Source: Lautropia sp. SCN 69-89 (lineage in GTDB: Bacteria; Pseudomonadota; Gammaproteobacteria; Burkholderiales; Burkholderiaceae_E). Taken from it: DNA of 64,000 nt. Within the stretch, counting starts at the first letter, position 1. Each line of letters starts with the position of its first letter. The notes beneath the pieces are model-generated. The model searched no databases. It saw only the letters and a program-made list of their open reading frames with translations, and had not been told where the DNA came from. The position numbers and the translations under genes were made by a program. The DNA lies in the NCBI GenBank assembly GCA_001724855.1, contig MEED01000014.1, positions 62,001 to 126,000 on the forward strand. Direction: 5' to 3'. This document shows, in pieces, positions 1 to 35,198 of this stretch.

Positions 1-769
1 CGTTGAACTCGAGGTAGCCGCGGTCGAGGTAGAACGAGCGCAGCGTTTCGAGGTCGCCGGCGAGCTTCTCGCGCGCGTACTGGTCGGCCTTCGAATACCA
101 GGTGAACCATGTGGGCGTGGACAGGGCCATCTCGTCGAGCAGGCGCTTGGTACTGAACGCCTTGTTGCCGACGAAGCGGATCGCCGTGATCTTCGCGGTC
201 TCGCCCTCCTCGATCGCAATCGAGATGCCGACGCGATTGCGCTCGAGCGGCGTGACCGTGGAAGTGATGCGCGCGGCATAGCGACCGCGCGACAGGTATT
301 GCCGCTTGATCTCCTGTTCGGCGCGCTCGAGCGTGGCACGATCGAAGATGCGCGACTCGGCGAGCCCCTGCTCGCGCAGCACGCGCTTGAGCGTGTCGGT
401 GTCGAATTCCTTCGCGCCGGTGATCTCGACCGACGCGATCGCGGGCCGCTCCTCGACGTAGACCACGAGGACGTCGCCCTCGGCTTCGATGCGCACGTCG
501 CGGTAGAAGCCGGTGGCGAACAGCGCCTTGACCGCCTCGCTGGCCTTCTCGTCGGTGATGCGGTCGCCCACGCGCACCGGCAGGTAGCTGAACACGGTGC
601 CCGGTTCGGTACGCTGCACTCCCTCGACGCGGATGTCGCGAACCACGAAGGGCTCGAAGGCGAGAGCGGGTCCGCTGGCGGCCGCGCAGGCCAGGGCGGT
701 GGCGAATACGACCAGCGCAACGCGCGCCGATCCCGGTTTGCGCCCCGGTCGGCGTCGGTCGAATGCCAT
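1..769 (-). CDS. bamA: Outer membrane protein assembly factor BamA, N-terminal part (runs off the left edge)
   Basis: BamA is the beta-barrel core of the BAM complex, which folds and inserts outer-membrane proteins. The visible part is an Arg-rich start, a hydrophobic signal peptide ending ASGPALA (about residue 36), and then POTRA repeats. FEPFVVRDIRVEGVQRTEPG opens POTRA1 and a second repeat starts near ASVEITGAKEF. The C-terminal barrel lies beyond base 1. The ATG at 769 is three bases from the rseP stop, so the two are probably co-transcribed with the genes upstream. In Betaproteobacteria the order rseP-bamA-skp-lpxD is usual. Family assignment is secure; only about 256 codons are present. 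Confidence 0.93.
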   Translation of the reverse strand, partial: MAFDRRRPGRKPGSARVALVVFATALACAAASGPALAFEPFVVRDIRVEGVQRTEPGTVFSYLPVRVGDRITDEKASEAVKALFATGFYRDVRIEAEGDVLVVYVEERPAIASVEITGAKEFDTDTLKRVLREQGLAESRIFDRATLERAEQEIKRQYLSRGRYAARITSTVTPLERNRVGISIAIEEGETAKITAIRFVGNKAFSTKRLLDEMALSTPTWFTWYSKADQYAREKLAGDLETLRSFYLDRGYLEFN

Positions 770-772
770 GCG

Positions 773-2134
773 TCAGGAACCGATCAGGCGGGTGATGTCG
801 TTGAACAGGGCCAACGCCATCATCATCATGATGATCGCCAGGCCGGCTTTTTGTGTGATCACCACGAAGCGCTCCGACAGTGGCCTGCCGCGCGCCGCTT
901 CGAGCGCGTAATATACCAAATGCCCCCCGTCGAGCACGGGGATCGGCAGCAGGTTCAGCACGCCGAGGCTGATGCTGATCAGCGCCAGGAAGCTCATGTA
1001 TGCGAGCCATCCCACGCGCACCGATTGCCCCGCCAAGTCGGCGATCGTCACGGGCCCGCTCAGGTTGCGCAGCGACAGTTCGCCCATCAGCATCTTGCCG
1101 AGCATGCGCAGCGAGAACACCGACATGTCCCAGGTCTGGCGCACACCCTGCCCCAGCGATTCGAGCGCGCCGTAGCGCACCGTCTGCATCAGCAGGCGAT
1201 CCTGCAGCCCCGCGCCGATGCGGCCGATCGGCGCGGCGCCTTCGCCGCCGGGTGCGGCCACGACGTCGGGCGTCACCGCGAGCGTGAGCTGGTCGCGCCC
1301 GCGCTGCACCGTGAACGACAGCGGCTTGCCGGCACTCGCCTTCACCCGCTCGATCACGTCGGACGCGCGGCGCACCGGCCTGTCGCCCACCGACAGCAGT
1401 TCGTCGCCCGCGAGCAGCCCGTCGCGCTCCGCAGCCGCGCCGCTCACGAGGTTGCCGATCACCACCTTGCCCGGCGCCAGCCGCAGGCCGAGCGTGCCGA
1501 GGAAGTCGCGCTCGGCTTCGTCGGGCGGCAGACCTCGCGTGTCGATGCGCACCTGGATCGTGCCGCCCTGCCGCTGCACTGCCAGCACGCCGTCGCGCCG
1601 CTCGATCACCGGCTCGAGCATCTGGAGCCGCACGTCGTTCCAGGAGCGCACCGCATCGCCGTCGACTGCGAGAATGCGGTCGCCCTCGTGCAGTTGCGCG
1701 GCTGCGGCCGGCGTGCCGGCAACCGGCTGGTCGATCACCGGCGCGGGCTCCTCGGTGCCGATCCAGCCCATTGCCGCATACAGCACGATCGCCAGCAGGA
1801 AATTGGCCAGTGGCCCGGCCACCACGATCGCCGAGCGCTGTGCGAGCGTCTTGCGCGTGAACGCGCGCGGCAACTCGTGCGGGGCGATCGGCCCGCTGGC
1901 CGCGTCGCGCTCGTCGAGCATGCGCACGTATCCGCCCAGCGGGACCGCCGCGATCGTCCACTCCGTGCGATCGCGACCCACGCGCCAGGACAGCAGCGGC
2001 TTGCCGAAGCCGATCGAAAAGCGCAGCACCTTGACGTCGCACCAGCGCGCGACCAGGTAATGGCCGAGCTCGTGCACGAAGATGAGCAGCGTGAGCGCCG
2101 CGAGGAACGCGACCAGTGTCTGCAGCCCGTTCAT
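773..2134 (-). CDS. rseP: Site-2 zinc metalloprotease RseP
   Basis: This inner-membrane protease (453 aa) cleaves anti-sigma factor RseA inside the membrane and also clears signal-peptide remnants. The zinc motif HELGH sits at residues 21-25 in the first membrane helix. Two PDZ domains follow (about residues 120-200 and 215-300), then C-terminal membrane helices containing [12 protein letters not shown], the second metal-binding region. The start ATG overlaps the dxr stop as ATGA, which implies translational coupling with dxr. Length and domain order are normal for the family. Confidence 0.95.
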
Positions 2135-3327
2135 GCCGCGCGCCTCGCCAGCTGGCCGCGGGCGTACGAGCGCGCCTCGCGGTCGATGTCGAGCACCTCG
2201 TCCACGTCGGCGCCCGCCGCGCGCGAGCCCGACGCCGCCAGAGCCGCCTCGGCGAGCGCCGCGATGCCCGGGAAGCGCAACTCGCCGGCAAGGAAGGCGG
2301 CGACCGCCACCTCGTTGGCCGCATTGAGCACGCACGGTGCGGCCCCGCCCGCACGCAGCGCCTCGCGCGCGAGCCGCAGGCACGGGAAGCGTTGCAGGTC
2401 GGGCACCTCGAACTCGAGGCTGCCCACCGCCGACAGGCTGAGCGGCGCGACGCCGCTGTCGATGCGCTCGGGATGCGCGAGCGCGTGCGCGATCGGCGTG
2501 CGCATGTCGGGATTGCCGAGCTGGGCGAGCATCGAGCCGTCTTCGTATTCGACCATCGAGTGGACGATGCTCTGCGGGTGCACCAGCACGTCGAGCCGGG
2601 CCTCCGGCAGGCCGAACAGGTACGACGCCTCGATCAGTTCGAGCCCCTTGTTCATCATCGTCGCCGAGTCGACCGAGATCTTGCGGCCCATCGACCATTT
2701 CGGGTGGGCGCAGGCCTGATCGGGAGTGGCCTGCATCATTTCGGCGGGGCTCGCGCGCCGGAACGGCCCGCCCGAAGCGGTGAGCACGATGCGCCGCACG
2801 CCGGGGGCCGCGGCGCCGGTACGCTGGCCCGCCGGCAGGCACTGGAAGATCGCGTTGTGCTCGCTGTCGATCGGCAGCACGGTGGCGCCGCCCTCGCGGC
2901 ATGCGCGCAGGAACACCTCGCCCGCCATCACCAGCGATTCCTTGTTGGCCAGCAGGATCCGCTTGCCGGCGCGCGCCGCCGCAATCGCCGGCGTGAGACC
3001 GGCGGCGCCGACGATCGCAGCCATGACCGTGTCGACCTGCGGATGCGCCGCGACTTCGGCCAGCGCCGCCTCGCCCCAGAGCACTTCGGTGGCGCAGCCG
3101 GCGGCCGCGAGCTGCGCGCGTGCGGCTGCGGCGGCTGCGGCGTCGCCGAGCACCGCACAGGCTGGCCGGTGGCGCTGGCACAGCGCGACCAGCGCGTCGA
3201 CCTGCCGGTGCGCCGACAGCGCGAACACGCGATAGCGCCCAGGATGCCGGGCGACGACGTCGAGCGTGCTCAGGCCGATCGAACCGGTGGCCCCGAGGAT
3301 CGTGAGCGTGCGTACGGCGGGCTGCAT
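2131..3327 (-). CDS. dxr: 1-deoxy-D-xylulose 5-phosphate reductoisomerase
   Basis: This cytoplasmic enzyme (398 aa) converts DXP to 2-C-methyl-D-erythritol 4-phosphate with NADPH and is the committed step of the MEP isoprenoid pathway. The NADPH-binding loop GATGSIG is at residues 12-18. [10 protein letters not shown] and the metal/substrate segment [10 protein letters not shown] are both intact. It overlaps rseP by four bases and lies seven bases from cdsA. Together with uppS three genes away, it shows that this cluster supplies the isoprenoid for undecaprenyl phosphate. Confidence 0.96.
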
Positions 3328-3334
3328 CCGGGGA

Positions 3335-4156
3335 TTATCCCAGCAGGCGATGCAGCAGCATCGCCGCCGGCATGGTCGGGATCATCGCATCGATGCGATC
3401 GAGCACGCCGCCGTGGCCCGGCAGCAGCGTGCCGCTGTCCTTCATGCCGGCCTGGCGCTTGAGCAGCGACTCGTGCAGGTCGCCGACGATCGACAGCGCG
3501 GCCAGGCCCACCAGCGCCAGCACCGCCGCCGGCGCCGGCCAGTGCGCCAGCAGTTGCGCCGGTAATCCCTGCGACAACGCCGGCACCGAAGCCGCCGCCA
3601 GCCCGAGCAGGGCCACCGCCACGAAGCCGCCGACCGCCCCTTCCCAGCTCTTTCCCGGACTGATCGACGGCGCGAGCTTGCGCCGGCCGAACGCGCGGCC
3701 TGCGAAATAGGCCGCGATGTCGGCCACCCAGACGATCGCCATCGCCACCAGCAGCGCCACCGGCCCGATGTCGCGCAAGGCCAGCAGCGCGACCCAGCAG
3801 GCGAGCAGCAGCGCAGCCGCCAGCGGCCAACCGCCGCCGCGCGCGTCGTGGCGCCGCAGCCGCAGCGGGCCGAGGACGACCCACAGCACGGTGGCTGCGG
3901 CGCAGGTCGCCGGCACGAGCCAGGTCGGCCAGCCGCCGCGCTCGTGCCAGGCAAGCAGCACGGCGCCGATGGCCGCAAGCGTGGCTGCCGCCAGGGCCGC
4001 CGCGCGGCGATGCCCGAGCAGCCGGCTCCATTCGTAGGCGGCCGCCGCGAGGAAGACGAGAGTGATCGCGCCCCAGATCCAGGCCGCGGACGCGAAGATC
4101 GCCGGCAGCAGCAGCGCCAGCAGGACCAGGGCGGTGACGACGCGCTTGCCGAGCAT
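3335..4156 (-). CDS. cdsA: Phosphatidate cytidylyltransferase
   Basis: CdsA (273 aa) makes CDP-diacylglycerol from phosphatidic acid and CTP, the precursor of the major phospholipids. It is an integral inner-membrane enzyme. The sequence is a series of hydrophobic helices, starting with a segment at residues 6-26. The family signature near the C terminus is complete: [13 protein letters not shown] followed by [16 protein letters not shown]. It lies seven bases downstream-facing from dxr and about 20 bases from uppS on the same strand. Confidence 0.95.
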
Positions 4157-4177
4157 CGGCGGTGCTTCGGAACGTGC

Positions 4178-4951
4178 TCAGCCCGAGGCCGCGGCGGCCG
4201 CGACCTGCGCGCTGGTTCGTCCGAAGCGCCGCTCGCGCGTCGCGTAGGACTCGATGGCCCGGTCGAGGGCGGCGGCGTCGAAGTCGGGCCACCAGGCGTC
4301 GGTAAAGTACAGCTCGGTGTAGGCGAGCTGCCAGAGCAGGAAATTGCTGATCCGCTGCTCGCCGCCGGTGCGGATGAACAGGTCGGGCTCGGGCGCGTAA
4401 GCCATCGCCAGGTGCTTCGCGAGCGCCTGTTCGGCGAACAGTTCGGGGTGGCGCGCCAGCTCGGGCTGCTCGCGCAGCGCCGCCTGCACCGCCTGCAGGA
4501 TGTCCCAGCGTCCGCCATAGTTGGCCGCGATCGTCAGGGTCATGCGCTCGTTGCCGGCGGTGCGCGCTTCGGCCTGGGTGATCAGGTCGCGCAGGCGCTG
4601 CTCGAACGCCGAGAGTTCGCCCACCACCCGCAGCCGGATGCCGTTCTTCTGCAGCTGCGTCACCTCGCGCTCGAGCGCCGAGATGAACAGGCGCATCAGC
4701 ACCGAGACTTCCTCTGCCGGCCGGCGCCAGTTCTCGGAGCTGAAGGCGAACAGCGTCAGGTACTCGACGCCGCGGCGCGCGCAGGCCTCGACGGTGGCGC
4801 GCACGGCCTCCACGCCCTTCGCATGCCCGGCCACGCGCGGCAGGCGCCGCTGCGTGGCCCAGCGGCCGTTGCCGTCCATGATGATCGCGACATGGCGCGG
4901 GACTGCCCGATACCCGGGAACCGCCACGGTGGTGCTGGTGAAGGTGGACAT
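4178..4951 (-). CDS. uppS: Undecaprenyl diphosphate synthase (cis-prenyltransferase)
   Basis: UppS (257 aa) adds eight isopentenyl units in cis to farnesyl diphosphate, giving the C55 carrier for peptidoglycan and O-antigen synthesis. The catalytic motif [13 protein letters not shown] is near residues 20-32. The C-terminal signature [15 protein letters not shown] and the motif [16 protein letters not shown] are intact. Downstream cdsA and dxr make this a lipid-precursor operon. The N terminus has a few extra residues before the conserved core, and the assigned ATG is the plausible start. Confidence 0.95.
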
Positions 4952-4990
4952 CGGCGTGTGGATATCGATCGCAGCGCGCGATGCGCGGCG

Positions 4991-5543
4991 CTAGACGGTC
5001 ATGATCTCCTGTTCCTTGACCGCGAGCATCTTGTCGATCTCCACCACGAAGCGGTCGGTGAGCTTCTGCACCTCTTCCTGGGCGCGCCGCTCGTCGTCCT
5101 CGGAGATCTCCTTGTCCTTGAGCAGCTTCTTCAGGTGCTCGTTGGCGTCGCGGCGCAGGTTGCGCACCGCCACCTTGGCCTGCTCGCCTTCGTGCTTGAC
5201 CACCTTGGCGCCGGCGCTCCTCGGACAGCGGCGGCATCGGCACGCGGATCAGGTCGCCGCTGGTGGCCGGATTCAGGCCGAGATCGGATTCGCGGATCGC
5301 CTTGTCGACGACCTGCACCATCTTCTTCTCCCAGGGTTGCACCGCGATCGTCCGCGCGTCCTGGACGGTGACGTTGGCCACCTGGCCGATCGGCACCATG
5401 CTGCCGTAGTAGTCGACGTGGATGTGGTCGAGCAGCCCGGCGTGCGCCCGCCCGGTGCGGATCTTGGCCAGCCCCGCCCGGAGCGATTCGATCGATTTCT
5501 GCATCTTCTGCTCGGCCGACTTGCGGACCTCGGCGATGCTCAT
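4991..5543 (-). pseudogene. frr: Ribosome recycling factor, frameshifted by an apparent 8-base deletion
   Basis: Frr splits post-termination ribosomes together with EF-G and is essential in bacteria. The first part reads [15 protein letters not shown]... through [10 protein letters not shown] (about 110 residues, 5543 to about 5212). The rest reads [20 protein letters not shown]... to KEQEIMTV in a different frame, ending with TAG at 4991-4993. Relatives have three further residues, such as ELT, between ERRR and KVVK. Only one base remains where ten are expected, so eight bases are missing near 5208-5214. Restoring them gives 186 aa, the normal length. Neighbours pyrH and uppS are intact. The likeliest reasons are a consensus error at this GC-rich site or a true lesion. 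Confidence 0.85.
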
Positions 5544-5552
5544 GCTATCTCC

Positions 5553-6314
5553 CTAAACGTGGACGAGCGTGCCCTCGTCGTCGCTGCTCAGCGCGCGGCG
5601 CAGCGCGCCTTCTTCCAGGATCGAGAACACCTTGATCGGCAGCTTCTGGTCGCGGCACAGCGCGAACGCGGTCGCGTCCATCACCTTCAGGTGGCGCGCG
5701 ATCGCCTCGTCGAAGCTGATGCGGCGGAAGCGCTTCGCGTCGGGGTCGGTCATCGGGTCGGCGCTGTAGACGCCGTCGACCTTGGTGGCCTTGAGCACCA
5801 GCTCGACGCCCATTTCCGCCCCGCGCAGCGCCGCCGCGGTGTCGGTGGTGAAGAACGGATTGCCGGTGCCGGCCGCGAAGATGACGACCTTGCCCTCTTC
5901 GAGATAGCGCAGCGCCTTGGGCCGGATGTAGGGCTCGACCACCTGCTCGATCTTCAGCGCCGACTGTACCCGGGCGACCACGTCGCGCTGGCGCAGCGCG
6001 TCCTGCAGCGCAAGCGAGTTCATCACGGTGGCCAGCATGCCCATGTAGTCGGCCGTGGCGCGATCCATGCCGGCCGCGCCGCCGGCGACCCCGCGAAAGA
6101 TGTTGCCGCCGCCGATCACGATCGCCAGTTCGAGCCCCGAGGCGACGACGTCGGCGATCTCGCCGACCATGCGCTCGATGGTGAGGCGGTCGATCCCGTA
6201 GGCCTCCTCGCCCATCAATGCTTCGCCGGAGAGCTTCAGCAGCACGCGGCGATAGGCCAGCGCGGGGGCAGGTGGCGCCACGCTCGCGCGGGCCAGGCTA
6301 TCGTTCGAACTCAC
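5553..6314 (-). CDS. pyrH: UMP kinase
   Basis: PyrH (253 aa) phosphorylates UMP to UDP in pyrimidine nucleotide synthesis. It belongs to the amino-acid kinase fold and is a hexamer regulated by GTP and UTP in this family. [14 protein letters not shown] carries the phosphate-binding Lys and Gly residues, [11 protein letters not shown] is the second glycine-rich loop, and [17 protein letters not shown] forms the UMP site. The start is GTG at 6314, preceded by GGAGG at 6319-6323. The N terminus is about 15 residues longer than usual. It lies between tsf and frr in the standard rpsB-tsf-pyrH-frr order. Confidence 0.95.
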
Positions 6315-6399
6315 GCACCCTCCTGATCGGCGCGGCCGCGCAAGACTGGACCGGAGCCGCGCCGCCCGGGATTATGGGGCTTTTCCGGAACGAATGCTG

Positions 6400-7287
6400 T
6401 CACCGGGCCGCGGCGGCGGCCTGCGCCGCGACCTCGGCGGCGAAGTCGGTCTGCTTCTTCTCGATGCCCTCGCCGACCACGTACAGCTCGAACCGGGCGA
6501 CCCGGGCGCCGCGCTGCGCGAGCAGCTGCTCGACGGTGAGCTTGTCGTCCTTGACGAAGGGCTGGCCGAGCAGCGTGACCTCCTTCAGGTACTTCTGGAC
6601 CGTGCCCTCGACCATCTTCGCGACGATCTCGGCCGGCTTGCCCGATTCGGCGGCCTTCTGCTGCGCGATCGAGCGCTCGCGCTCGACGTCCTCGGCCGGC
6701 ACGCCGGTCTTCGACAGCGCCTTGGGCTTGCTGGCCGCGACGTGCATCGCGAGGTCTTTCGCCAGCGCCTCGTCGCCGCCGTCGACGTCGATCAGCACGC
6801 CGATCTTCGAGCCGCCGTGCACGTAGCTGGCCAGCCGGCCCTCGGCGGCAACCCGCGCGAAGCGGCGGATGCTCATGTTCTCGCCGATGCGCCCGACCAG
6901 CGCGGTGCGCGTGGACTCGACGGTGCCCTCGCCCATCGGCAGCGACGAGAGCGCGGCCACGTCGGCCGGCGCGGCGCGGGCGACCATCGCGGCCAGGTCG
7001 CGAACGAACGCGAGGAAGTCGTCGTTCTTGGCGACGAAGTCGGTCTCGCAGTTCACCTCGACGATCGCCCCCAGCTTGCGGTCGTCGGCCAGCCAGATGC
7101 CGACCACGCCTTCGGCCGTGACGCGCGCGGCCGCCTTGCTCGCCTTGTTGCCGAGCTTCACGCGCAGGATTTCCTCGGCGCGAGCCATGTCGCCGCCGGC
7201 CTCGGTGAGCGCCTTCTTGCACTCCATCATCGGCGCGTCGGTCTTCTCGCGCAGTTCCTTCACCATGCTCGCGGTGATTTCCGCCAT
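6400..7287 (-). CDS. tsf: Elongation factor Ts
   Basis: EF-Ts (295 aa) is the guanine-nucleotide exchange factor that regenerates EF-Tu-GTP. The N-terminal UBA-like domain contains [19 protein letters not shown]. The core motif [10 protein letters not shown], whose TDFVAKN segment inserts into EF-Tu, is near residues 80-90. The C-terminal module ends in an Ala-rich tail. A Shine-Dalgarno AGGAG stands about seven bases before the ATG. It is co-oriented with rpsB upstream and pyrH downstream. Confidence 0.96.
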
Positions 7288-7339
7288 CGCATTGCTCCTG
7301 TGTCGGCCCGTGGCGGGCCGGTCGTTCCCGTGCCGCCGC

Positions 7340-8089
7340 TCAGGCGTCCTCGCCGTCGACCTCGACGAACTCCTCGTCGGCGGTGGCGGCCTTGATCGCT
7401 TCCTGCAGCGAAGCAGCGCGCCCCTCGAGGATCGCGTCGGCCGCGCCGCGCGCGTACAGCCGGATCGCCTTGCCGGAGTCGTCGTTGCCGGGAATGACGT
7501 GGTCGATGCCCTCGGGCGAGTGGTTGCTGTCGACGACGGCCACCACCGGGATGCCCAGCTTGTTGGCCTCGGTAACCGCGATCTTGTGGAAGCCGACGTC
7601 GATCACGAACAGCGCGTCGGGCAGCCCGCCCATTTCCTTGATGCCGCCGAGGCTGGTGTGCAGCTTGTCGAGTTCACGCTGGAACATCAGCGATTCCTTC
7701 TTCGACATGCGCTCGAGACCCCCCTCGGACTGCGTGGCCTCCATGTCCTTCAGTCGCTTGATCGACGACTTGACGGTCTTGAAGTTGGTGAGCATGCCGC
7801 CGAGCCAGCGCTGGTCGACGAAGGGCATGCCGGCGCGTGCCGCTTCCTCGGCGACGATCTCGCGAGCCTGGCGCTTGGTGCCGACGAACAGCACCGTGCC
7901 GCGATTGGCCGCGAGCTGGCGCAGGTACTTCATCGCGTCCTGGTACATGACCAGGGACTTTTCGAGGTTGAAGATGTGGATACGGTTGCGGTGGCCGTAG
8001 ATGTACGGGGCCATCCGCGGGTTCCAGAAGCGCGTCTGGTGGCCGAAATGGACGCCGGCCTCGAGCATTTGCCGCATGGTGACGGACAT
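7340..8089 (-). CDS. rpsB: 30S ribosomal protein S2
   Basis: S2 (249 aa) is a late-assembling 30S protein that holds S1 on the ribosome. The start [18 protein letters not shown] is the universal S2 N terminus, and [14 protein letters not shown] and [11 protein letters not shown] are conserved core segments. The ATG at 8089 is chosen over an upstream in-frame ATG near 8263 because it begins exactly at the family N terminus and has GGAG at about 8096-8099. Transcription runs away from map. About 270 bases separate the two genes, enough for the regulated rpsB leader known in other Proteobacteria, although I could not identify its structure. Confidence 0.95.
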
Positions 8090-8358
8090 GACAAACTCCG
8101 ATCGGGTTGAGCCTGACGCACCGCCTGCGACGCCGCGCCGCGATGCCCGGCACGAACCGGCCGGTTGCGGCGCGCTCTTCGCCACCCCCGATCGCGGTTT
8201 CCACCGGGCGATGCCCGGAACCCGGACGCTGCCCGAAAGACTTGCGCGATCGGCGGCACCCAATTGGGACGGTGCGCGCTATTTTGGCCGGGTGCCACCG
8301 GGCGCGACTGCCGCGCGAAGCTCGCGAAGCGCCGCCCTCATGGGCATTCAGCCAAGCT

Positions 8359-8364
8359 TATAAT
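8359..8364 (+). promoter_or_regulatory. Candidate -10 box of map (leaderless)
   Basis: A perfect TATAAT ends six bases before the map ATG (spacer CATAGC). No Shine-Dalgarno sequence lies between. With normal promoter geometry the first transcribed base would be at or within one base of the A of ATG. No convincing -35 element is seen 16-18 bases upstream, where the sequence is CCCTCA. It is one of six such arrangements in the window. Confidence 0.6.
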
Positions 8365-8370
8365 CATAGC

Positions 8371-9180
8371 ATGTCCATCGTCCTCAAGTCCGCCCCGGAG
8401 ATCGAGGCCATGCGCGTGGCGGGTCGCCTCGCCAGCGAGGTGCTCGACTACATCACCCCGTTCGTGCGCGCCGGTGTCAGCACCGGCGAGATCGATCGGC
8501 TGTGCCACGAATACATGGTCGAGGTGCAGAAGACCGTCCCCGCGCCGCTGAACTACGCCCCCCCGGGCTACCGGCCGTATCCGCGCTCGATCTGCACCTC
8601 GGTGAACCACCAGGTCTGCCACGGCATCCCGGGCGATCGCGTGCTGAAGAACGGCGACATCATGAACATCGACATCACCGTCATCAAGGACGGGTTTCAC
8701 GGCGACACCAGCCGCATGTTCATGATCGGCGAGCCCGCGGTCGGCGCGCGCCGGCTGTGCCAGGTCACCTTCGAGTGCATGTGGATCGGCATCGACCAGG
8801 TGCGCCCGGGCGCGACGATCGGCGACATCGGCTACGCGATCCAGCGGCACGCCGAGAGCCACGGCTACTCGGTGGTGCGCGAGTTCTGCGGGCACGGCAT
8901 CGGCAGGCGCTTCCACGAGGAGCCGCAGGTGCTGCACTACGGCCGCCCGGGCATCGGCGAGCGCCTGGAGCCGGGAATGATCTTCACCATCGAGCCGATG
9001 ATCAACGCCGGCAAGCGCGAGGTGCGCGAGATGGCCGATGGCTGGACGATCGTCACGAAGGACCACAGCCTGTCGGCCCAGTGGGAGCATACGGTGCTGG
9101 TGACCGACTCCGGCCACGAAGTGCTGACCGTCTCGGCCGGCACCCCGGCCCGACCGGAGCCGTTGCGCGCGGTCGCGTGA
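8371..9180 (+). CDS. map: Methionine aminopeptidase type I
   Basis: Map (269 aa) removes the initiator methionine from nascent proteins. The pita-bread fold ligands are visible in order: SICTSVNHQVCHG, DITVIKDGFHGDTS (two metal Asp), FCGHGIGRRFHEEP (His), TIEPMI (Glu) and QWEHTVLVT (Glu). The start MSIVLKSAPEIEAM fits the family. The gene begins directly after a TATAAT box. Its TGA overlaps the GTG start of glnD, so the two are translationally coupled. Divergent rpsB lies on the other side. Confidence 0.96.
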   Translation: MSIVLKSAPEIEAMRVAGRLASEVLDYITPFVRAGVSTGEIDRLCHEYMVEVQKTVPAPLNYAPPGYRPYPRSICTSVNHQVCHGIPGDRVLKNGDIMNIDITVIKDGFHGDTSRMFMIGEPAVGARRLCQVTFECMWIGIDQVRPGATIGDIGYAIQRHAESHGYSVVREFCGHGIGRRFHEEPQVLHYGRPGIGERLEPGMIFTIEPMINAGKREVREMADGWTIVTKDHSLSAQWEHTVLVTDSGHEVLTVSAGTPARPEPLRAVA

Positions 9181-28978: not shown

Positions 28979-29030
28979 CGACGCCCCACTTCGCGCGCGA
29001 CGCGGGGTGACGGCGCGCTACTTCGCGCGC
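28970..29030. repeat. Imperfect 29-base direct repeat across two convergent gene ends
   Basis: Bases 28970-28998 and 29002-29030 agree at about 25 of 29 positions. Both run from a GGGTGAC segment to ACTTCGCGCGC. The first copy covers the ABC-F stop codon; the second covers the stop and last codons of the GST on the other strand. It looks like a local tandem duplication at the junction. Confidence 0.6.
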
Positions 29031-29668
29031 ATCTTCGCCAGCAGCTCCGTGTGGGCCTTGCGATCGGCGTTCACCTTCTGCACCGTCGGGCGCTCGCCCA
29101 GCCGCTTCACGTAGTCGCGCACCGGCAGCGCGGCCAGCGGATCCTCGCCCCAGATCGCCTTGCCGGCCATCGAGATCACCGGCAGGTGCACGACCGCCGC
29201 GCAATCGGCCATCGTGAACCGGTCGCCGGCCAGAAACGGTGCGAACTTCACGAGCCGCGCGATGGCGGCCACGCCGCGCTCGAGGTCGCGACGCGTCGCG
29301 TCGATGGTGCCCTGCGAGACCGTGCCGCCGAAGAACGCCTGCACGTAGACGCGGCGCGCGACCAGCTCGAGATGCAGCTCGGTGAACGCGACCAGTTCGC
29401 GCACCTTGGCCCGCTCGAACGGGTCGGCAGGCAGCAGGGGCACCTGGGGATACGCGTCCTCCAGGTATTCGAGGATCACCTGCGACTCGCACAGCGTGCC
29501 CTGCGGCGTGCGCAGGAACGGCACCTTGCCGAGCGGGCTGGCCCCGAGCGTAGGCTCGTCCTTGCTCGCCCAGTTCAGCTCCTCGGTGAACGCGACGCCC
29601 TTCTCCAGCATCGCGAGCTTGACCTTGTTGTAGTAGTTGCTGACAGCGAAGCCGGCCAGTACCAGCAT
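29018..29668 (-). CDS. Glutathione S-transferase family protein
   Basis: A 216-aa cytosolic GST with a thioredoxin-like N-terminal domain (LVLAGFAVSNYYNKVKLAML) and an all-helical C-terminal domain. LGKVPFLRTPQGTLCESQVI includes the cis-Pro and the Glu-Ser pair that bind glutathione. The ATG at 29668 is preferred over upstream codons because GGGAGG lies eight bases before it and the fold starts there. Substrate is unknown. It is convergent with the ABC-F gene and divergent from the 3-hydroxyacyl-CoA dehydrogenase gene. Confidence 0.85.
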   Translation of the reverse strand: MLVLAGFAVSNYYNKVKLAMLEKGVAFTEELNWASKDEPTLGASPLGKVPFLRTPQGTLCESQVILEYLEDAYPQVPLLPADPFERAKVRELVAFTELHLELVARRVYVQAFFGGTVSQGTIDATRRDLERGVAAIARLVKFAPFLAGDRFTMADCAAVVHLPVISMAGKAIWGEDPLAALPVRDYVKRLGERPTVQKVNADRKAHTELLAKMRAK

Positions 29669-29717
29669 GACGATGTCCTCCCGCGGATCGATGCGCCAGT
29701 GTATCGCGGCGCTCCAG

Positions 29718-29723
29718 TAGAAT
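29718..29723 (+). promoter_or_regulatory. Candidate -10 box of the 3-hydroxyacyl-CoA dehydrogenase gene (leaderless)
   Basis: TAGAAT ends seven bases before the ATG at 29731 (spacer CCCCCGC). No Shine-Dalgarno sequence is present. Transcription would start at about the A of the start codon. A good -35 is not seen. Confidence 0.55.
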
Positions 29724-29730
29724 CCCCCGC

Positions 29731-31269
29731 ATGAGCACACCACCCTTCCAGCGGATCGGCGTCGTCGGCAGTGGCGCCATGGGACGGGGCATCGCCCAGC
29801 TGTTCGTCCAGAGCGGCATCGCGGTGCGCCTGCATGACAACAACGCGGCGGCCGTCACCTCGGCGATCGCCGGCATCGCCGACGTGTTCGCCCGGCAGGT
29901 CGAGAAGGGGCGCATGTCCGCCGAAGCCGCAGCGGCCGCGCGCGCGCGGCTCGAGCCGGCCGACGCGCTGTCCGCGCTCGCCGACTGCGACCTGGTCGTC
30001 GAGGCGATCGTCGAGCGACTCGACGTCAAGCGCGAACTGTTCGGGCAGCTCGAGGCAATCATCGCCGACGACGCGGTGCTCGCCACCAACACGTCGTCGC
30101 TGTCGGTCACTGCCATTGCCGCCGCCTGCCGTCGGCCGCAGCGCGTCGCCGGCCTGCACTTCTTCAACCCCGTGCCGCTGATGAAGGTGGTCGAGGTGAT
30201 CGACGGCATGCGCACCGATTCGTCCGTGGTCGAGCGCCTGGTCGCGCTCACACGGCTCACCGGGCACCTCGCGGTGGTGGCGCAGGACACGCCCGGGTTC
30301 ATCGTCAACCATGCGGGGCGCGGCTTCGGCACCGAGGCGCTGAAGGCGCTCGGCGAGGGCGTCGCCGACGTCGCGACCGTCGACCGGATCCTGCGCGAAC
30401 AGGTCGGCTTCGACGGACAGGGCTTCAAGCTCGGGCCCTTCGAGTTGCTCGACCTCACCGGCCTCGACGTCTCGCAACCGGTGATGGAGTCGATCTACCG
30501 CCAGTTCTACGACGAGCCGCGCTTCCGCCCGTCGGTGATCGCCGCGCAGCGCCTTGCCGCCGGTCTCACCGGCCGCAAGGCGGGCGAAGGCTTCTATCGG
30601 TACGCCGACGGGCGCCAGCAGGCCTCGCCCGAAGCGGCGCCGCCGACGGTCGCGGTCAGGCCGCCGGTCTGGGTCGCGCCCGGGCCGCGCGCCGCGATGC
30701 TGCGCGAAGCGGTCGCCGCGCTGCAGGGCGTCGTGCACGACACCGAACAGCCGGGCGAGCACGCACTGGTGCTCGTGGCGCCGCTCGGGCTCGACGCCAC
30801 CGCGGCCGCCGCTGCGGCCGGGCTGCCGGCCTCGCGTACCGTCGCGGTCGACACGCTGTTCCCGATCGCACCGGGCGGCTGCAGGCGTCGCGTGCTGATG
30901 CCCACGCCCGCAACGCGCGCCGACTATCGCGACGCCGCGCACGCGCTGTTCGCCACCGACAGCACGCCGGTCTCGATGCTGCGCGACAGCCCCGGCTTCG
31001 TCGCGCAACGCGTGCTCGCGATGATCGTCTCGATCGGCACCGAGATCGCGCAGCAGCGCATCGCCTCGCCGGCCGACATCGACACCGCGGTGCGCACCGG
31101 GCTGGGCTATCCGCTCGGGCCGCTCGCGATGGGCGACGCGCTGGGCGCAGCGACGGTGCTCGAGATCCTCGAGAACCTGCACCGGCTCACCGGCGATCCG
31201 CGTTACCGCCCCGGCGGCTGGCTGCGCCGACGCGCGCAGCTGGGCCTGTCGCTGCTGCACGAGGATTGA
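29731..31269 (+). CDS. 3-hydroxyacyl-CoA dehydrogenase, PaaC/PaaH type
   Basis: This 512-aa enzyme oxidises 3-hydroxyacyl-CoA to 3-ketoacyl-CoA with NAD. GVVGSGAMGRGIAQLF carries the Rossmann GxGxxG at residues 13-18. LATNTSSLSVTAIA and GLHFFNPVPLMKVVEVI are the catalytic His region and substrate site. A first C-terminal dimerisation domain starts near DTPGFIVNHAGRG. A second, diverged copy (DSPGFVAQRVLAMI.. YPLGPLAMGD) ends the protein, as in the phenylacetate-pathway type. The crotonase-fold gene follows after four bases. It is the first gene of the acyl-CoA module. Confidence 0.9.
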   Translation: MSTPPFQRIGVVGSGAMGRGIAQLFVQSGIAVRLHDNNAAAVTSAIAGIADVFARQVEKGRMSAEAAAAARARLEPADALSALADCDLVVEAIVERLDVKRELFGQLEAIIADDAVLATNTSSLSVTAIAAACRRPQRVAGLHFFNPVPLMKVVEVIDGMRTDSSVVERLVALTRLTGHLAVVAQDTPGFIVNHAGRGFGTEALKALGEGVADVATVDRILREQVGFDGQGFKLGPFELLDLTGLDVSQPVMESIYRQFYDEPRFRPSVIAAQRLAAGLTGRKAGEGFYRYADGRQQASPEAAPPTVAVRPPVWVAPGPRAAMLREAVAALQGVVHDTEQPGEHALVLVAPLGLDATAAAAAAGLPASRTVAVDTLFPIAPGGCRRRVLMPTPATRADYRDAAHALFATDSTPVSMLRDSPGFVAQRVLAMIVSIGTEIAQQRIASPADIDTAVRTGLGYPLGPLAMGDALGAATVLEILENLHRLTGDPRYRPGGWLRRRAQLGLSLLHED

Positions 31270-31273
31270 CCCC

Positions 31274-32071
31274 ATGGCGGCGCGCCTGCTGTCCGAGCGC
31301 CGCGGCGCAGTGCTGCTGCTGCGCATCTCGAATCCGCAGGCACGCAACGCGCTGCACCCCGACGTCTACCGCGACGGCGCGGCCGCGCTGCGCGCCGCCG
31401 GCGAAGACCATGGCGTGCGCGCGGTCGTCCTCGCCGGCGAAGGCGAGCACTTCTGTGCCGGCGGCAACCTGCATCGGCTGCGCGAGAACCGCTCGGCCGA
31501 CCCGACGGTGCAGGCCGCCTCGATCGACCTGCTCGCCGAATGGATCGCGGCGATCCGCGATTGCCCGAAGCCCGTCATCGCGGCCGTCGAGGGTGCTGCC
31601 GCCGGCGCGGGCTTCTCGCTCGTGCTCGCCTGCGACCTGGTGTTCGCCGCCGAGGACGCGCGCTTCGTCATGTCGTACGTGAAGGTCGGGCTCACCTGCG
31701 ACGGCGGAGCCAGCCATTTCCTCGCGACCCGCCTGCCCTACCCGCTCGCCTACGAGCTGCTGTCCGGCGGCCAGCCGATCGACGCACCGCGGTTGCACGC
31801 GCTGGGGCTCGTGAACGCACTCGCACCGCGCGGCGAAGCGCTGGCGGTGGCGCTGGCGCGCGCCTCCGAACTGGCCGACGGCCCGGCGTTCGCGCTGGGC
31901 CGCATCAAGTCGCTGCTGGCGGCGCACGAACGCGAAACCCTGGCGCACCAGCTCGTGCGCGAACGCGACAACTTCGTCGCGGCGCTGTTTCACGACGACG
32001 GCGGCGAAGGCATCGACGCCTTCCTCGCCAGGCGCCCGCCGCGCTTCAACCGCGACGCGGGCACCGGCTGA
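31274..32071 (+). CDS. Enoyl-CoA hydratase/isomerase (crotonase) family protein
   Basis: A 265-aa crotonase-fold protein. The oxyanion-hole segment HFCAGGNL and the helix EGAAAGAGFSLVLACDL are clear. The two glutamates of classical hydratase are missing: Ser115 and Tyr135 stand in their places. Asp143 in GLTCDGG aligns with the catalytic Asp of dienoyl-CoA isomerase and PaaG-like isomerases. Isomerase or hydrolase activity is therefore more likely than simple hydration; this is inferred from alignment by eye. It sits between the dehydrogenase and the kinase in one operon. Confidence 0.85.
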   Translation: MAARLLSERRGAVLLLRISNPQARNALHPDVYRDGAAALRAAGEDHGVRAVVLAGEGEHFCAGGNLHRLRENRSADPTVQAASIDLLAEWIAAIRDCPKPVIAAVEGAAAGAGFSLVLACDLVFAAEDARFVMSYVKVGLTCDGGASHFLATRLPYPLAYELLSGGQPIDAPRLHALGLVNALAPRGEALAVALARASELADGPAFALGRIKSLLAAHERETLAHQLVRERDNFVAALFHDDGGEGIDAFLARRPPRFNRDAGTG

Positions 32072-32099
32072 ATGCACTGCACGATTGCACGGAGGACCC

Positions 32100-33200
32100 G
32101 TGGCTGATCCGTCCACCGCCGGCGCTGCCGACAACGACGCCGCCTACAGCGGGACCGTCGCGGTTCCCGAACGCCATCGCGTCGACGCCGATGCGTTGTC
32201 GGGCTGGCTGCGCGAGCACGTGCCCGACTTCGCCGGCCCCCTGACGATCGAACTCTTCAAGGGCGGGCAGTCGAACCCCACCTACCGGCTGTCCACGCCC
32301 GGCGCGGCCTACGTGATGCGCTCCAAGCCCGGACCGGTCGCGAGACTGCTGCCCTCGGCGCACGCGATCGAGCGCGAATACCGCGTGCTCGCGGCGCTCG
32401 CCGGAACCGGCATCCCGGTGGCACGCGTGCACGCGCTGTGCGAAGACGAAGCGGTGATCGGGCGCGCCTTCTACATCATGGAGTACATCGACGGCCGCGT
32501 ACTCTGGGAGCAGTCGCTGCCGGGCCTGTCGAACTCCGAGCGCAGCGCGATCTACGAAGAGATGAACCGGGTGATCGCCGCGCTGCACACAGTCGACTAC
32601 GAGGCGATCGGGCTGGGCGACTTCGGCAAGCCGGGCAACTACTTCGCGCGCCAGATCGGCCGCTGGAGCCGGCAGTACCAGGCCTCGGAGACCGAGCCGA
32701 TCGACGCGATGAACCGGCTGATCGATTGGCTGCCGCAGCACGTGCCGCCGGGCGACGAGACCTCGATCGTGCATGGCGACTACCGGCTCGACAACCTCGT
32801 CTTCGACCGCCGCGAGCCGCGCATCCGCGCGATCCTCGACTGGGAGCTGTCCACGCTGGGCCACCCGCTCGCCGATTTCTCGTACCACTGCATGGCCTGG
32901 CACATCGCGCCGGGACAGTTCCGCGGCATCGCCGGGCTCGATCACGCGGCGCTCGGCATTCCGGCCGAGCGCGACTACGTGCAGGCGTATTGCCGGCGCA
33001 CCGGACGCGACCCGGCGGCCACGCTCGCCCACTGGGATTTCTATCTCGCGTACAACATGTTCCGGCTCGCCGCCATCCTGCAGGGAATCATGAAGCGCGC
33101 GGTCGACGGCACGGCCTCGAGCGCGCAGGCAATCGAGGCGGGGCGGCGCGCGCGCCCGCTCGCCGAGATGGGTTGGGAGATCGCGCAGCGCGTGCGCTGA
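32100..33200 (+). CDS. APH-type kinase, homologue of the ACAD10/ACAD11 kinase domain (LvaA-like)
   Basis: A 366-aa aminoglycoside-phosphotransferase-fold kinase. [14 protein letters not shown] is the nucleotide loop. The catalytic loop is [12 protein letters not shown] (residues 225-236), and the metal motif [18 protein letters not shown] begins at Asp247. These match the kinase domain of ACAD10/ACAD11 closely. In the Pseudomonas levulinate pathway, LvaA of this family phosphorylates 4-hydroxyacyl-CoA. The start is GTG at 32100, with GGAGG five bases upstream; a TTG at 32085 is in frame but has no such site. The adjoining ACAD gene supports a 4-hydroxyacyl-CoA role over antibiotic resistance. 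Confidence 0.85.
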
Positions 33201-33234
33201 GCGCGCAGCGTGTGCGTTGACACAGGAGAACACC

Positions 33235-34494
33235 ATGGAATTCGAATACTCGGCACGATGCGTCGAGCTGCGGCAGCGGCTGCTCGCCTTCATGGACGAG
33301 CACATCTATCCGAACGAGCGCCGCTTCTACCAGGAGGTGTCGGCGAACCGGCGCGCCGGCAACGCGTGGATCCCGACGAAGATCGTCGAGGAGCTCAAGC
33401 CGAAGGCGCGCGCGGCCGGCCTGTGGAACCTGTTCCTGCCGAAGTCCGCGCGGGTCCCCGAAGGGCTGTCGAACCTCGACTACGCACCGCTGTGCGAGAT
33501 CATGGGCCGCGTCACCTGGGCGCCGGAGGTCTTCAACTGCAACGCGCCCGACACCGGCAACATGGAGACGCTCGAGCGCTACGCGAGCGAACCGATCAAG
33601 CGTGCCTGGCTCGACCCGCTGCTCGCCGGCGAGATCCGCTCGGCCTTCGCGATGACCGAGCCCGCGGTCGCGTCCTCCGACGCCACCAACATCCAGGCGC
33701 GCATCGAGCGCCAGGGCGACCACTACCTGATCAACGGGCGCAAGTGGTGGACTTCGGGTGCGGGCGACCCGCGCTGCAAGGTCTACATCTTCATGGGCAA
33801 GACCGACCCGGACGCCGGCCGCCACGAGCAGCAATCGATGATCGTCGTGCCCGCCGACACCCCCGGGATCACCGTGGTGCGGCCGCTCAACGTGTTCGGC
33901 TATGACGACGCCCCGCACGGCCATTGCGAAGTCGCCTTCGAGAACGTGCGCGTTCCGGTGGAGAACATCCTGCTCGGCGAGGGGCGCGGCTTCGAGATCG
34001 CGCAGGGCCGGCTCGGCCCGGGACGCATCCACCACTGCATGCGCTCGATCGGCGTGGCCGAGCGCGCCCTCGAATACATGTGCAAGCGGCTGTCTTCGCG
34101 CACCGCCTTCGGCAAGCCGATCTCCGCGCACAACGTCTGGCACGAGCGGATCGCCGACGCGCGCTGCATGATCGACCAGGCGCGGCTTCTCACGCTGAAG
34201 GCCGCCTACATGATGGACACGGTCGGCAACAAGGTGGCCAGGGCCGAGATCGCGATGATCAAGGTCGTCGCGCCGAACATCGCCTGCCAGATCCTCGACT
34301 GGGCGATCCAGGCGCACGGTGGCGCCGGCGTCAGCGACGACTTCCCGCTCGCATCGCTGTATGCCCACCAGCGCACGCTGCGGCTGGCCGACGGCCCCGA
34401 CGAGGTTCACCGCAACGCGATCGCCAAGCTCGAGCTCGCGAAGCACCTGCCGGTGCCCGGCGCCGCCAAGGCGCAGCCCGCGCGCGGCGCCTGA
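33235..34494 (+). CDS. Acyl-CoA dehydrogenase, ACAD10/ACAD11 (LvaC-like) type
   Basis: A 419-aa FAD flavoprotein of the acyl-CoA dehydrogenase fold. [15 protein letters not shown] and [20 protein letters not shown] form the FAD/substrate region. [13 protein letters not shown] and [17 protein letters not shown] are strongly ACAD11-like. In LvaC and ACAD11 the partner of the APH kinase removes phosphate from a 4-phosphoacyl-CoA to allow normal beta-oxidation. AGGAGA stands five bases before the ATG at 33235. It lies 34 bases after the kinase gene and 11 bases before a GST. Confidence 0.9.
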
Positions 34495-34505
34495 GGACGC
34501 ACGTC

Positions 34506-35198
34506 ATGATCGACCTCTACACCTGGCCGACGCCCAACGGTCACAAGATCCACATCATGCTCGAGGAGTGCGGCCTGCCGTACGCCGTGCATCCGGTGGA
34601 CATCCGCGCCGGCGAGCAGTTCTCGACCCGGTTCCTCGAGATCAGCCCGAACAACAAGATCCCGGCGATCGTCGACAGCGACGGACCCGACGGCCGACCG
34701 ATCTCGCTGTTCGAGTCCGGCGCGATCCTCGTCTACCTCGCCGGCAAGACCGGCCGGTTCCTGCCCCGCAGCACGCGCGGCAGGTACGAGGTCCTGCAGT
34801 GGCTGATGTTCCAGATGGGCGGCGTCGGCCCCATGCTCGGGCAGGCGCACCATTTCCGCATCTACGCGCCCGAGCCGATCCCCTACGCGATCGATCGCTA
34901 CACGAAAGAGGCCGCGCGGCTGTATCGCGTCCTCGACCGGCGGCTCGAAGCCACCGGCGCCTTTCTCGGCGGGCGCCAGTATTCGATCGCCGACATCGCG
35001 ACCTGGCCGTGGATACGCTCGCACGCCAGCCAGGGCATCGGCCTGGCCGACTATCCCGGCGTGAAGCGCTGGTACGAGACGATCGGCAAGCGTGCCGCCG
35101 TGGTGCGCGCGCTCACGGTGCTGGCCGACCGGCGCAAGCCGATGGACGACAAGGCGCGCGAGAACCTGTTCGGCGCCACCCAGTACGCGCGGCGCTGA
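34506..35198 (+). CDS. Glutathione S-transferase, Nu-class (YfcG/YghU-like)
   Basis: A 230-aa GST. The start MIDLYTWPTPNGHKIHIML has the TPNGxKI signature of the YfcG/YghU class, whose members act as glutathione-dependent disulfide reductases without an active-site Cys. EISPNNKIPAIVD and SLFESGAILVYLAGKTG complete the glutathione site. The C-terminal domain contains YSIADIATWPW. It is the last gene of the plus-strand acyl-CoA operon, so it may protect against reactive lipid aldehydes; that role is inferred from context. Confidence 0.88.
   Translation: MIDLYTWPTPNGHKIHIMLEECGLPYAVHPVDIRAGEQFSTRFLEISPNNKIPAIVDSDGPDGRPISLFESGAILVYLAGKTGRFLPRSTRGRYEVLQWLMFQMGGVGPMLGQAHHFRIYAPEPIPYAIDRYTKEAARLYRVLDRRLEATGAFLGGRQYSIADIATWPWIRSHASQGIGLADYPGVKRWYETIGKRAAVVRALTVLADRRKPMDDKARENLFGATQYARR

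Follow-up and report, generated by a model that had tools for sequence, protein, structure and literature searches.

What do two adjacent genes of Lautropia sp. SCN 69-89, which resemble the two halves of the mammalian proteins ACAD10 and ACAD11, contribute to the metabolism of their host? They lie in a stretch of 64,000 nucleotides (contig MEED01000014.1, positions 62,001 to 126,000; hereafter the window, by which positions are numbered) of a Burkholderiaceae genome of 3.8 Mb in 70 contigs that is 95.6% complete. The upstream gene (32100–33200, + strand) encodes a kinase with an APH fold of the type found at the N terminus of ACAD10/11, and the downstream gene (33235–34494, + strand) encodes an acyl-CoA dehydrogenase (ACAD) of the ACAD10/11/LvaC type. 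An earlier note, made from the sequence alone, had proposed that the pair phosphorylates a 4-hydroxyacyl-CoA and then eliminates phosphate; all the kinase and dehydrogenase motifs that it quoted are present in the translations. We consider it highly probable that the two proteins are a 4-hydroxyacyl-CoA kinase and a 4-phosphoacyl-CoA phosphate-eliminating ACAD that would together feed beta-oxidation, in which a 3-hydroxyacyl-CoA dehydrogenase (HCDH) from the same operon would perform a later step and a crotonase from the operon would act as an isomerase.

The ACAD gene starts with ATG behind an AGGAG sequence and encodes a product of 419 amino acids, in which a family profile search found the N-terminal, middle and C-terminal ACAD domains, each above its cut-off. 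Among the sequences of all solved structures, its top matches are ACAD11 (8v3u at 1.5e-148, 8v3v and 2wbi) and 4hr3, each with at least 482 bits, and the next match, 4u83, scores 157 bits, more than 300 bits below the ACAD11 group. Over its length, the protein is 56.4% identical to the dehydrogenase half of mouse ACAD11, for which PMC12440821 gives the residues R626, H634, R637 and D753; 8v3u and 8v3v were taken as the mouse enzyme from the numbering of that paper, which is offset by one. In the alignment, R259 and the motif H267-C-M-R270 of the window ACAD correspond to mouse R626, H634 and R637, and D386 aligns with D753, the catalytic Asp that takes the place of Glu. This set of Arg, HCMR and Asp occurs in 136/136 ACAD rows that are at least 45% identical to the window protein, a count that includes the window protein and mouse ACAD11 and in which the other 134 rows represent 110 distinct sequences. 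Below 45% identity it occurs in 3 of 19 rows, and it was found in none of eight distinct other ACADs of the genome, these being the ones that align over 70% of the query among 28 further Pfam ACAD matches. A quick tree places the window ACAD in a clade of 31 rows with ACAD11 (SH-aLRT, Shimodaira–Hasegawa-like approximate likelihood-ratio test, support 100), with seven generic ACADs of the genome outside. P97 of the window protein is the conserved Pro that corresponds to P463 of human ACAD11. ACADs at three further loci (L149, L151 and L201), 30–36% identical to the window's, also keep the Arg/HCMR/Asp set, by which the chemistry may be broader than the ACAD11 clade.

The kinase gene starts with GTG, preceded by GGAGG at 32091–32095, and encodes 366 amino acids; a 360-residue stretch of it, when scanned, matched Pfam APH with an E-value of 8.8e-56. 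The search against all solved structures returned five matches in total, namely 3dxp (1.7e-175; 68.9% identity), ACAD11 (8v3v at 1e-80 and 8v3u at 1e-79), 9o56 (1e-51) and 3ats (1.2e-7). The kinase half of mouse ACAD11 is 39.7% identical to the window kinase over nearly the full length. For this half, PMC12440821 names D220, N225 and R176; aligned with the 366-residue model, the catalytic D220 and N225 and the CoA-site R176 correspond to D227, N232 and R184, and Q57, R74, R92, E93 and D247 of the window kinase are likewise as in mouse ACAD11. The match of the pair to the two halves of ACAD10/11, as described in the earlier note, thus holds both in identity and in residues. The mammalian proteins share both domains with the window pair and, at the positions mapped, its diagnostic residues, and the window ACAD lies in the ACAD11 clade; however, they are single polypeptides, whereas the window has two genes and no counterpart of the HAD domain of ACAD10.

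Activity has been reported for a similar pair of separate proteins. According to PMC11342911, the Burkholderia kinase Q63VL0 and ACAD Q63VL1 substituted in vitro for the two domains of ACAD10 and performed the same two reactions on 4-hydroxyhexanoyl-CoA. Like the window pair, they are a separate kinase and ACAD, and they belong to the same bacterial family. Their genes presumably lie at a locus like that of Burkholderia guangdongensis (L053), which is orthologous to the window's, has the same gene order and encodes a kinase 70% and an ACAD 76% identical to those of the window. We infer the same activity for the window pair. The diagnostic residues, the ACAD tree and the reported activity of the Burkholderia orthologues together make the predicted phosphorylation and the subsequent elimination of phosphate well supported. 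The chemistry of the pair is already known, and the window pair adds to a known enzyme group.

The mechanism that these similarities suggest would begin with the kinase, which would use ATP to phosphorylate the 4-hydroxyl group of 4-hydroxyacyl-CoAs. The ACAD, with FAD, D386 as the Asp base and the phosphate-binding cluster of R259 and HCMR, would then eliminate phosphate to give a 2-enoyl-CoA that would enter beta-oxidation. The two genes belong to a series of five on the + strand, in the order HCDH, crotonase, kinase, ACAD and glutathione transferase (GST), separated by gaps of 4, 28, 34 and 11 bp; the dehydrogenase, crotonase and GST are those named in the earlier note, with the GST now typed as YfcG. 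The HCDH (29731–31269, + strand) belongs to the PaaH-like PRK08268 subfamily (686.7 bits against a cut-off of 508) and would perform a later step of beta-oxidation, and the crotonase (31274–32071, + strand) would shift double bonds instead of adding water. The last gene (34506–35198, + strand) encodes a homologue of the YfcG-type GSTs and disulfide-bond oxidoreductases (YfcG structure 5hfk, 1.7e-73); its score for PRK13972, 258.5 bits, is under the cut-off of 332. Upstream, a divergent gene (29018–29743, − strand) was recognized as GST-like by profile searches and is a conserved neighbour, and a DUF1178 gene on the − strand bounds the cluster at the far end. These genes make up the seven open reading frames (ORFs) scanned between 29018 and 36168, among which we found no ligase, thiolase, 4-keto reductase or gene like LvaB, LvaD or LvaE. 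The proposal in the earlier note of a complete route for 4-hydroxy acids finds no support in the operon, in which the ligase, thiolase, 4-keto reductase and an LvaB-like gene are missing and the crotonase is without the catalytic glutamates; CoA ligation, hydration and thiolysis would have to be supplied by genes elsewhere. Scans for promoters and terminators between 29400 and 35400 gave zero sites each, a result that is uninformative at this G+C content.

To what extent do these genes travel together? We surveyed the nearest 80 of at least 575 confirmed relatives, which yielded 69 loci with at least 4.5 kb before and at least 3.5 kb after the kinase, and counted a neighbour if it lay within 6.5 kb of the kinase on the expected strand. 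At these 69 loci, which are those of the nearest relatives, the kinase is accompanied by the ACAD (66 loci), the crotonase (62), the last-gene GST (57), the HCDH (54), the divergent GST (53) and a histidine phosphatase (52). The last of these distinguishes the Burkholderia and Paraburkholderia loci from the window: at L049, L053, L064 and L079 its gene lies between crotonase and kinase, whereas it is not found there in the window and the genome has no match to it at 1e-15. We also compared 61 genomes, the host's own and 60 relatives, for which all co-occurrence tests ignore shared ancestry. The histidine phosphatase was found in nine of them, all nine also with the kinase. An ACAD match of 1e-60 or better was present in 43/43 genomes with any kinase match, as opposed to 2/18 without; for strong kinase matches only, the figures are 39/39 and 6/22 in the others, the motif not having been verified in every weak ACAD match, of which the weakest is about 36% identical.

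Two other loci show different arrangements. At L006 (G005:C2), in a genome of the same genus, about 18 kb separate the crotonase from the kinase; the part of this interval that L006 covers (locus 1–9000) has a G+C content of about 62% as against 68–70% beyond. Judged by eye, its ORFs look like those of a permease, two ABC ATPases and a short-chain dehydrogenase/reductase (SDR). Immediately ahead of the kinase there is also a partial match to a second crotonase. This may be a catabolic island inserted into the cluster. On the megaplasmid pHG1 of Cupriavidus necator H16 (L195, 7001–8227), an ACAD that shares 76% identity with that of the window adjoins genes for cytochrome c maturation, and the plasmid gene table, which is incomplete, lists no kinase within 7 kb of it.

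Several observations weigh against the assignment of the pair to the ACAD10/11 chemistry, or against treating it as a unit. The Pro position of the ACAD varies between P, S and A inside the HCMR-Asp group, though PMC11342911 calls this Pro highly conserved; since all three residues occur inside the group, the Pro does not define it. In the kinase, the position that PMC12440821 numbers as R86 is not occupied by Arg in the printed sequence when the offset of one is applied, and we took R92 of the window kinase, the Arg beside the alpha-C Glu, as its equivalent. At five loci (L010, L011, L014, L015 and L064) the GST directly follows the kinase with no ACAD between them; a sixth locus without ACAD, L083, lies at a contig edge. 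L010, L011, L014 and L015 belong to the window's own genus (genomes G002, G011, G010 and G012, respectively), in which G017 has the same order, and L064 is from Burkholderia stagnalis. The five genomes of the genus without a local ACAD have one with HCMR and Asp elsewhere, 78% identical in G011 and 53–54% in the other four. Judged by gene content, kinase and ACAD are linked in function, not always physically, and do not form strictly one unit, since the ACAD is missing beside the kinase in these five genomes and at the Burkholderia stagnalis locus.

The kinase trees also belong among these reservations. In a quick tree, the window-type kinases and ACAD11 group with support 87, but two generic APHs of the genome are left unplaced (support 0). 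A more careful tree leaves the position of ACAD11 within these kinases unsettled, and its 100/100 branch splits only all these kinases from the chosen DUF6285-linked outgroup. Both trees recover a second kinase clade, comprising PDB 9o56 and the kinases of L161 and L197–L200, as one unit (100/100 in the careful tree, 97 in the quick one). Five of its kinases share 27–32% identity with the ACAD11 kinase as against 39.7% for the window kinase, so that pairwise identity favours the window type. The kinase tree fits a kinship with ACAD11 and is weaker in this respect than the ACAD tree. Of the phylogenetic check that the earlier note had suggested, the part concerning the ACAD is borne out, and the kinase, which lies outside the 9o56 clade, joins ACAD11 in the quick tree and is not resolved in the careful one.

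The natural point of comparison is the lva operon (LvaA–E) of Pseudomonas putida, which shares with the window a kinase and an ACAD in one operon. According to PMC12440821, LvaC has the catalytic Asp and the active-site sequences of ACAD10/11, and PMC11342911 puts the identity of LvaA to the ACAD10/11 kinases at 29%. The window kinase, by contrast, is 40% identical to that of ACAD11, and the absence of lvaB, lvaD and lvaE homologues beside the pair, remarked upon in the earlier note, is confirmed for the seven ORFs. The second kinase clade looks LvaA-like in that its kinases are about as distant from the ACAD11 kinase as the 29% given for LvaA. Plasmid records, and genomes across whole classes, were searched for a reference LvaA; no certain LvaABCDE locus was found, so that LvaA is not in the tree. 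This search yielded the second lineage, often in the order ACAD, SDR, kinase, histidine phosphatase, SDR: at L161, L198–L200, L215, L216 and L218–L221, an ACAD, one or two SDRs, the kinase and (not at L219) the histidine phosphatase form one run. Its hosts are Gammaproteobacteria, and it also occurs on plasmids of Azospirillum, Pseudoalteromonas and Ideonella, where a histidine phosphatase likewise lies beside the kinase. PMC6692424 describes a histidine phosphatase in the lva cluster of Pseudomonas citronellolis, and its authors suggest that it may act on the phosphorylated intermediate. The equation of LvaB with DUF6285 (PF19802) was rejected, DUF6285 loci carrying other kinase types; PF19802 has no match in the genome, which is uninformative about LvaB. 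The kinases beside DUF6285, aligned for five distinct loci, are without the alpha-C Arg and R184, and of four ACADs at such loci, those of L147 and L148 have Glu and no HCMR, and those of L149 and L151, 35–36% identical to the window's, have the motif.

The crotonase offers an entry for a different explanation of the cluster. With 349.7 bits it exceeds the curated cut-off of 300 for NF046063, the family to which NCBIfam gives the name 'oxepin-CoA hydrolase, alternative type'. The active site of a hydratase such as the rat enzyme has two catalytic Glu, and that of PaaG has an Asp. In the window crotonase, Ser115 and Tyr135 occupy the two hydratase Glu positions, which bears out its description in the earlier note as unusual, and Asp143, within an LxxDxGG motif, lies at the position of the PaaG Asp (residue 144 in Escherichia coli PaaG by our own count). 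Lacking the hydratase glutamates and having a PaaG-like Asp site, the protein is most likely a double-bond shifter, that is, a predicted enoyl-CoA isomerase, and not a hydratase; its role in the operon is presumed from this site. In PMC9007349, H281DRAFT_04594 of Paraburkholderia bryophila is required for growth on phenylacetate and is proposed to be an oxepin-CoA hydrolase. The agreement of the family name with this proposal suggests that the NF046063 model was founded on H281DRAFT_04594. Like the window crotonase, that protein has lost two hydratase side chains, with Ser at the first Glu and Met at the Gln position. In 8/8 genomes the family is present in a single copy (1e-40 or better) whose coordinates fall within this cluster, and the Paraburkholderia xenovorans copy has Ser at 118 as in the P. 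bryophila gene and Met at 136, compared with 135 in PMC9007349. Copy number and residue agreement make it very probable that H281DRAFT_04594 is this cluster's own crotonase.

The cluster could accordingly be read as one for the breakdown of aromatic acids such as phenylacetate, with the crotonase as the missing oxepin-CoA hydrolase, the HCDH as the missing PaaH and the kinase and ACAD acting on a ring-cleavage or shunt product. In addition to the family score and the growth requirement, the distribution of the phenylacetyl-CoA epoxidase subunit PaaA speaks for this and against our own reading of the crotonase: PaaA is present in 18/39 genomes with a strong kinase as opposed to 2/22 others (p 0.004) and, outside the genus, in 4/5 crotonase genomes as opposed to 10/38 (p 0.03). 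However, PaaA, the one paa gene searched for and taken as the marker of the epoxidase, was not found in the 95.6%-complete host genome by a query that is positive in 20/61 genomes at 64–77% identity. Within the genus (18 genomes, the host's included), 17 have the crotonase and six have PaaA, and 12 of the 17 have the crotonase without PaaA; across the 61 genomes, the crotonase tracks the kinase (22/22, the copy of G045 being just 40% identical) and not PaaA (9/22, p 0.40). Moreover, the HCDH required on phenylacetate is a different gene, H281DRAFT_00361, according to PMC9007349. We regard a cluster for phenylacetate as quite unlikely. The host genome departs from the family as named, in that no PaaA was detected, the crotonase is tied to the kinase–ACAD cluster and its site is PaaG-like. 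It is conceivable, although we would hold it only tentatively, that NF046063, despite its name, is really the enoyl-CoA isomerase of a 4-hydroxyacyl-CoA kinase–ACAD module that phenylacetate breakdown has borrowed. It would then be needed on phenylacetate in Paraburkholderia only since dehydroadipyl-CoA, a 3-enoyl-CoA, also arises on that route and has to be isomerized.

With the 4-hydroxyacyl-CoA kinase and phosphate-eliminating ACAD as the preferred reading, two further alternatives concern the substrate. The pair might act mainly on another hydroxyacyl-CoA, with the hydroxyl group at a different position or derived from branched or cyclic acids, instead of straight 4-hydroxy acids. The settings of HCMR-Asp ACADs are indeed varied: on a Sphingobium plasmid (L196, 4920–12730) genes for an epoxide hydrolase and P450s come after the order HCDH–ACAD–kinase, which hints at the substrate of the pair; in Azospirillum and Pseudoalteromonas such ACADs lie beside SDRs and a histidine phosphatase; and in Acinetobacter soli one that is 30% identical, with the motif present, lies beside a ligase, thiolases and two crotonases. 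Yet the Burkholderia orthologues are active on 4-hydroxyhexanoyl-CoA, and PMC11342911 tracked the phosphorylated intermediate with 4-hydroxyhexanoate, using 5- and 6-hydroxyhexanoate as contrast, and we judge a different main substrate unlikely. A role of the operon in detoxifying lipid-peroxidation products, in which the GSTs would conjugate the aldehyde and the pair would act on acids derived from 4-hydroxynonenal, seems very unlikely to us. Its appeal lies in the YfcG-type GST that ends the operon and is near the kinase at 57/69 loci, and in the divergent GST at 53/69, but the 69 loci are those of nearest relatives, so that the conserved order is partly a matter of ancestry, the families nearest to the last-gene GST are annotated as disulfide-bond oxidoreductases, and the cluster has no aldehyde dehydrogenase. 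Nothing beyond the neighbouring GSTs points to the lipid-peroxidation source that the earlier note had considered.

The association of this crotonase family with the kinase–ACAD cluster is the new element here; a literature search, with most subscription journals outside its reach, returned no paper that ties the two together. It makes the curated name 'oxepin-CoA hydrolase, alternative type' doubtful for genomes without the phenylacetate epoxidase. If the family does prove to be the isomerase of the kinase–ACAD module, both pathways would draw on one cluster, and many genomes would carry a wrong curated annotation. The locus places the recently characterized chemistry of ACAD10/11 in a conserved Burkholderiaceae cluster whose genes can be deleted singly in harmless strains, which makes the natural substrate approachable by growth tests.

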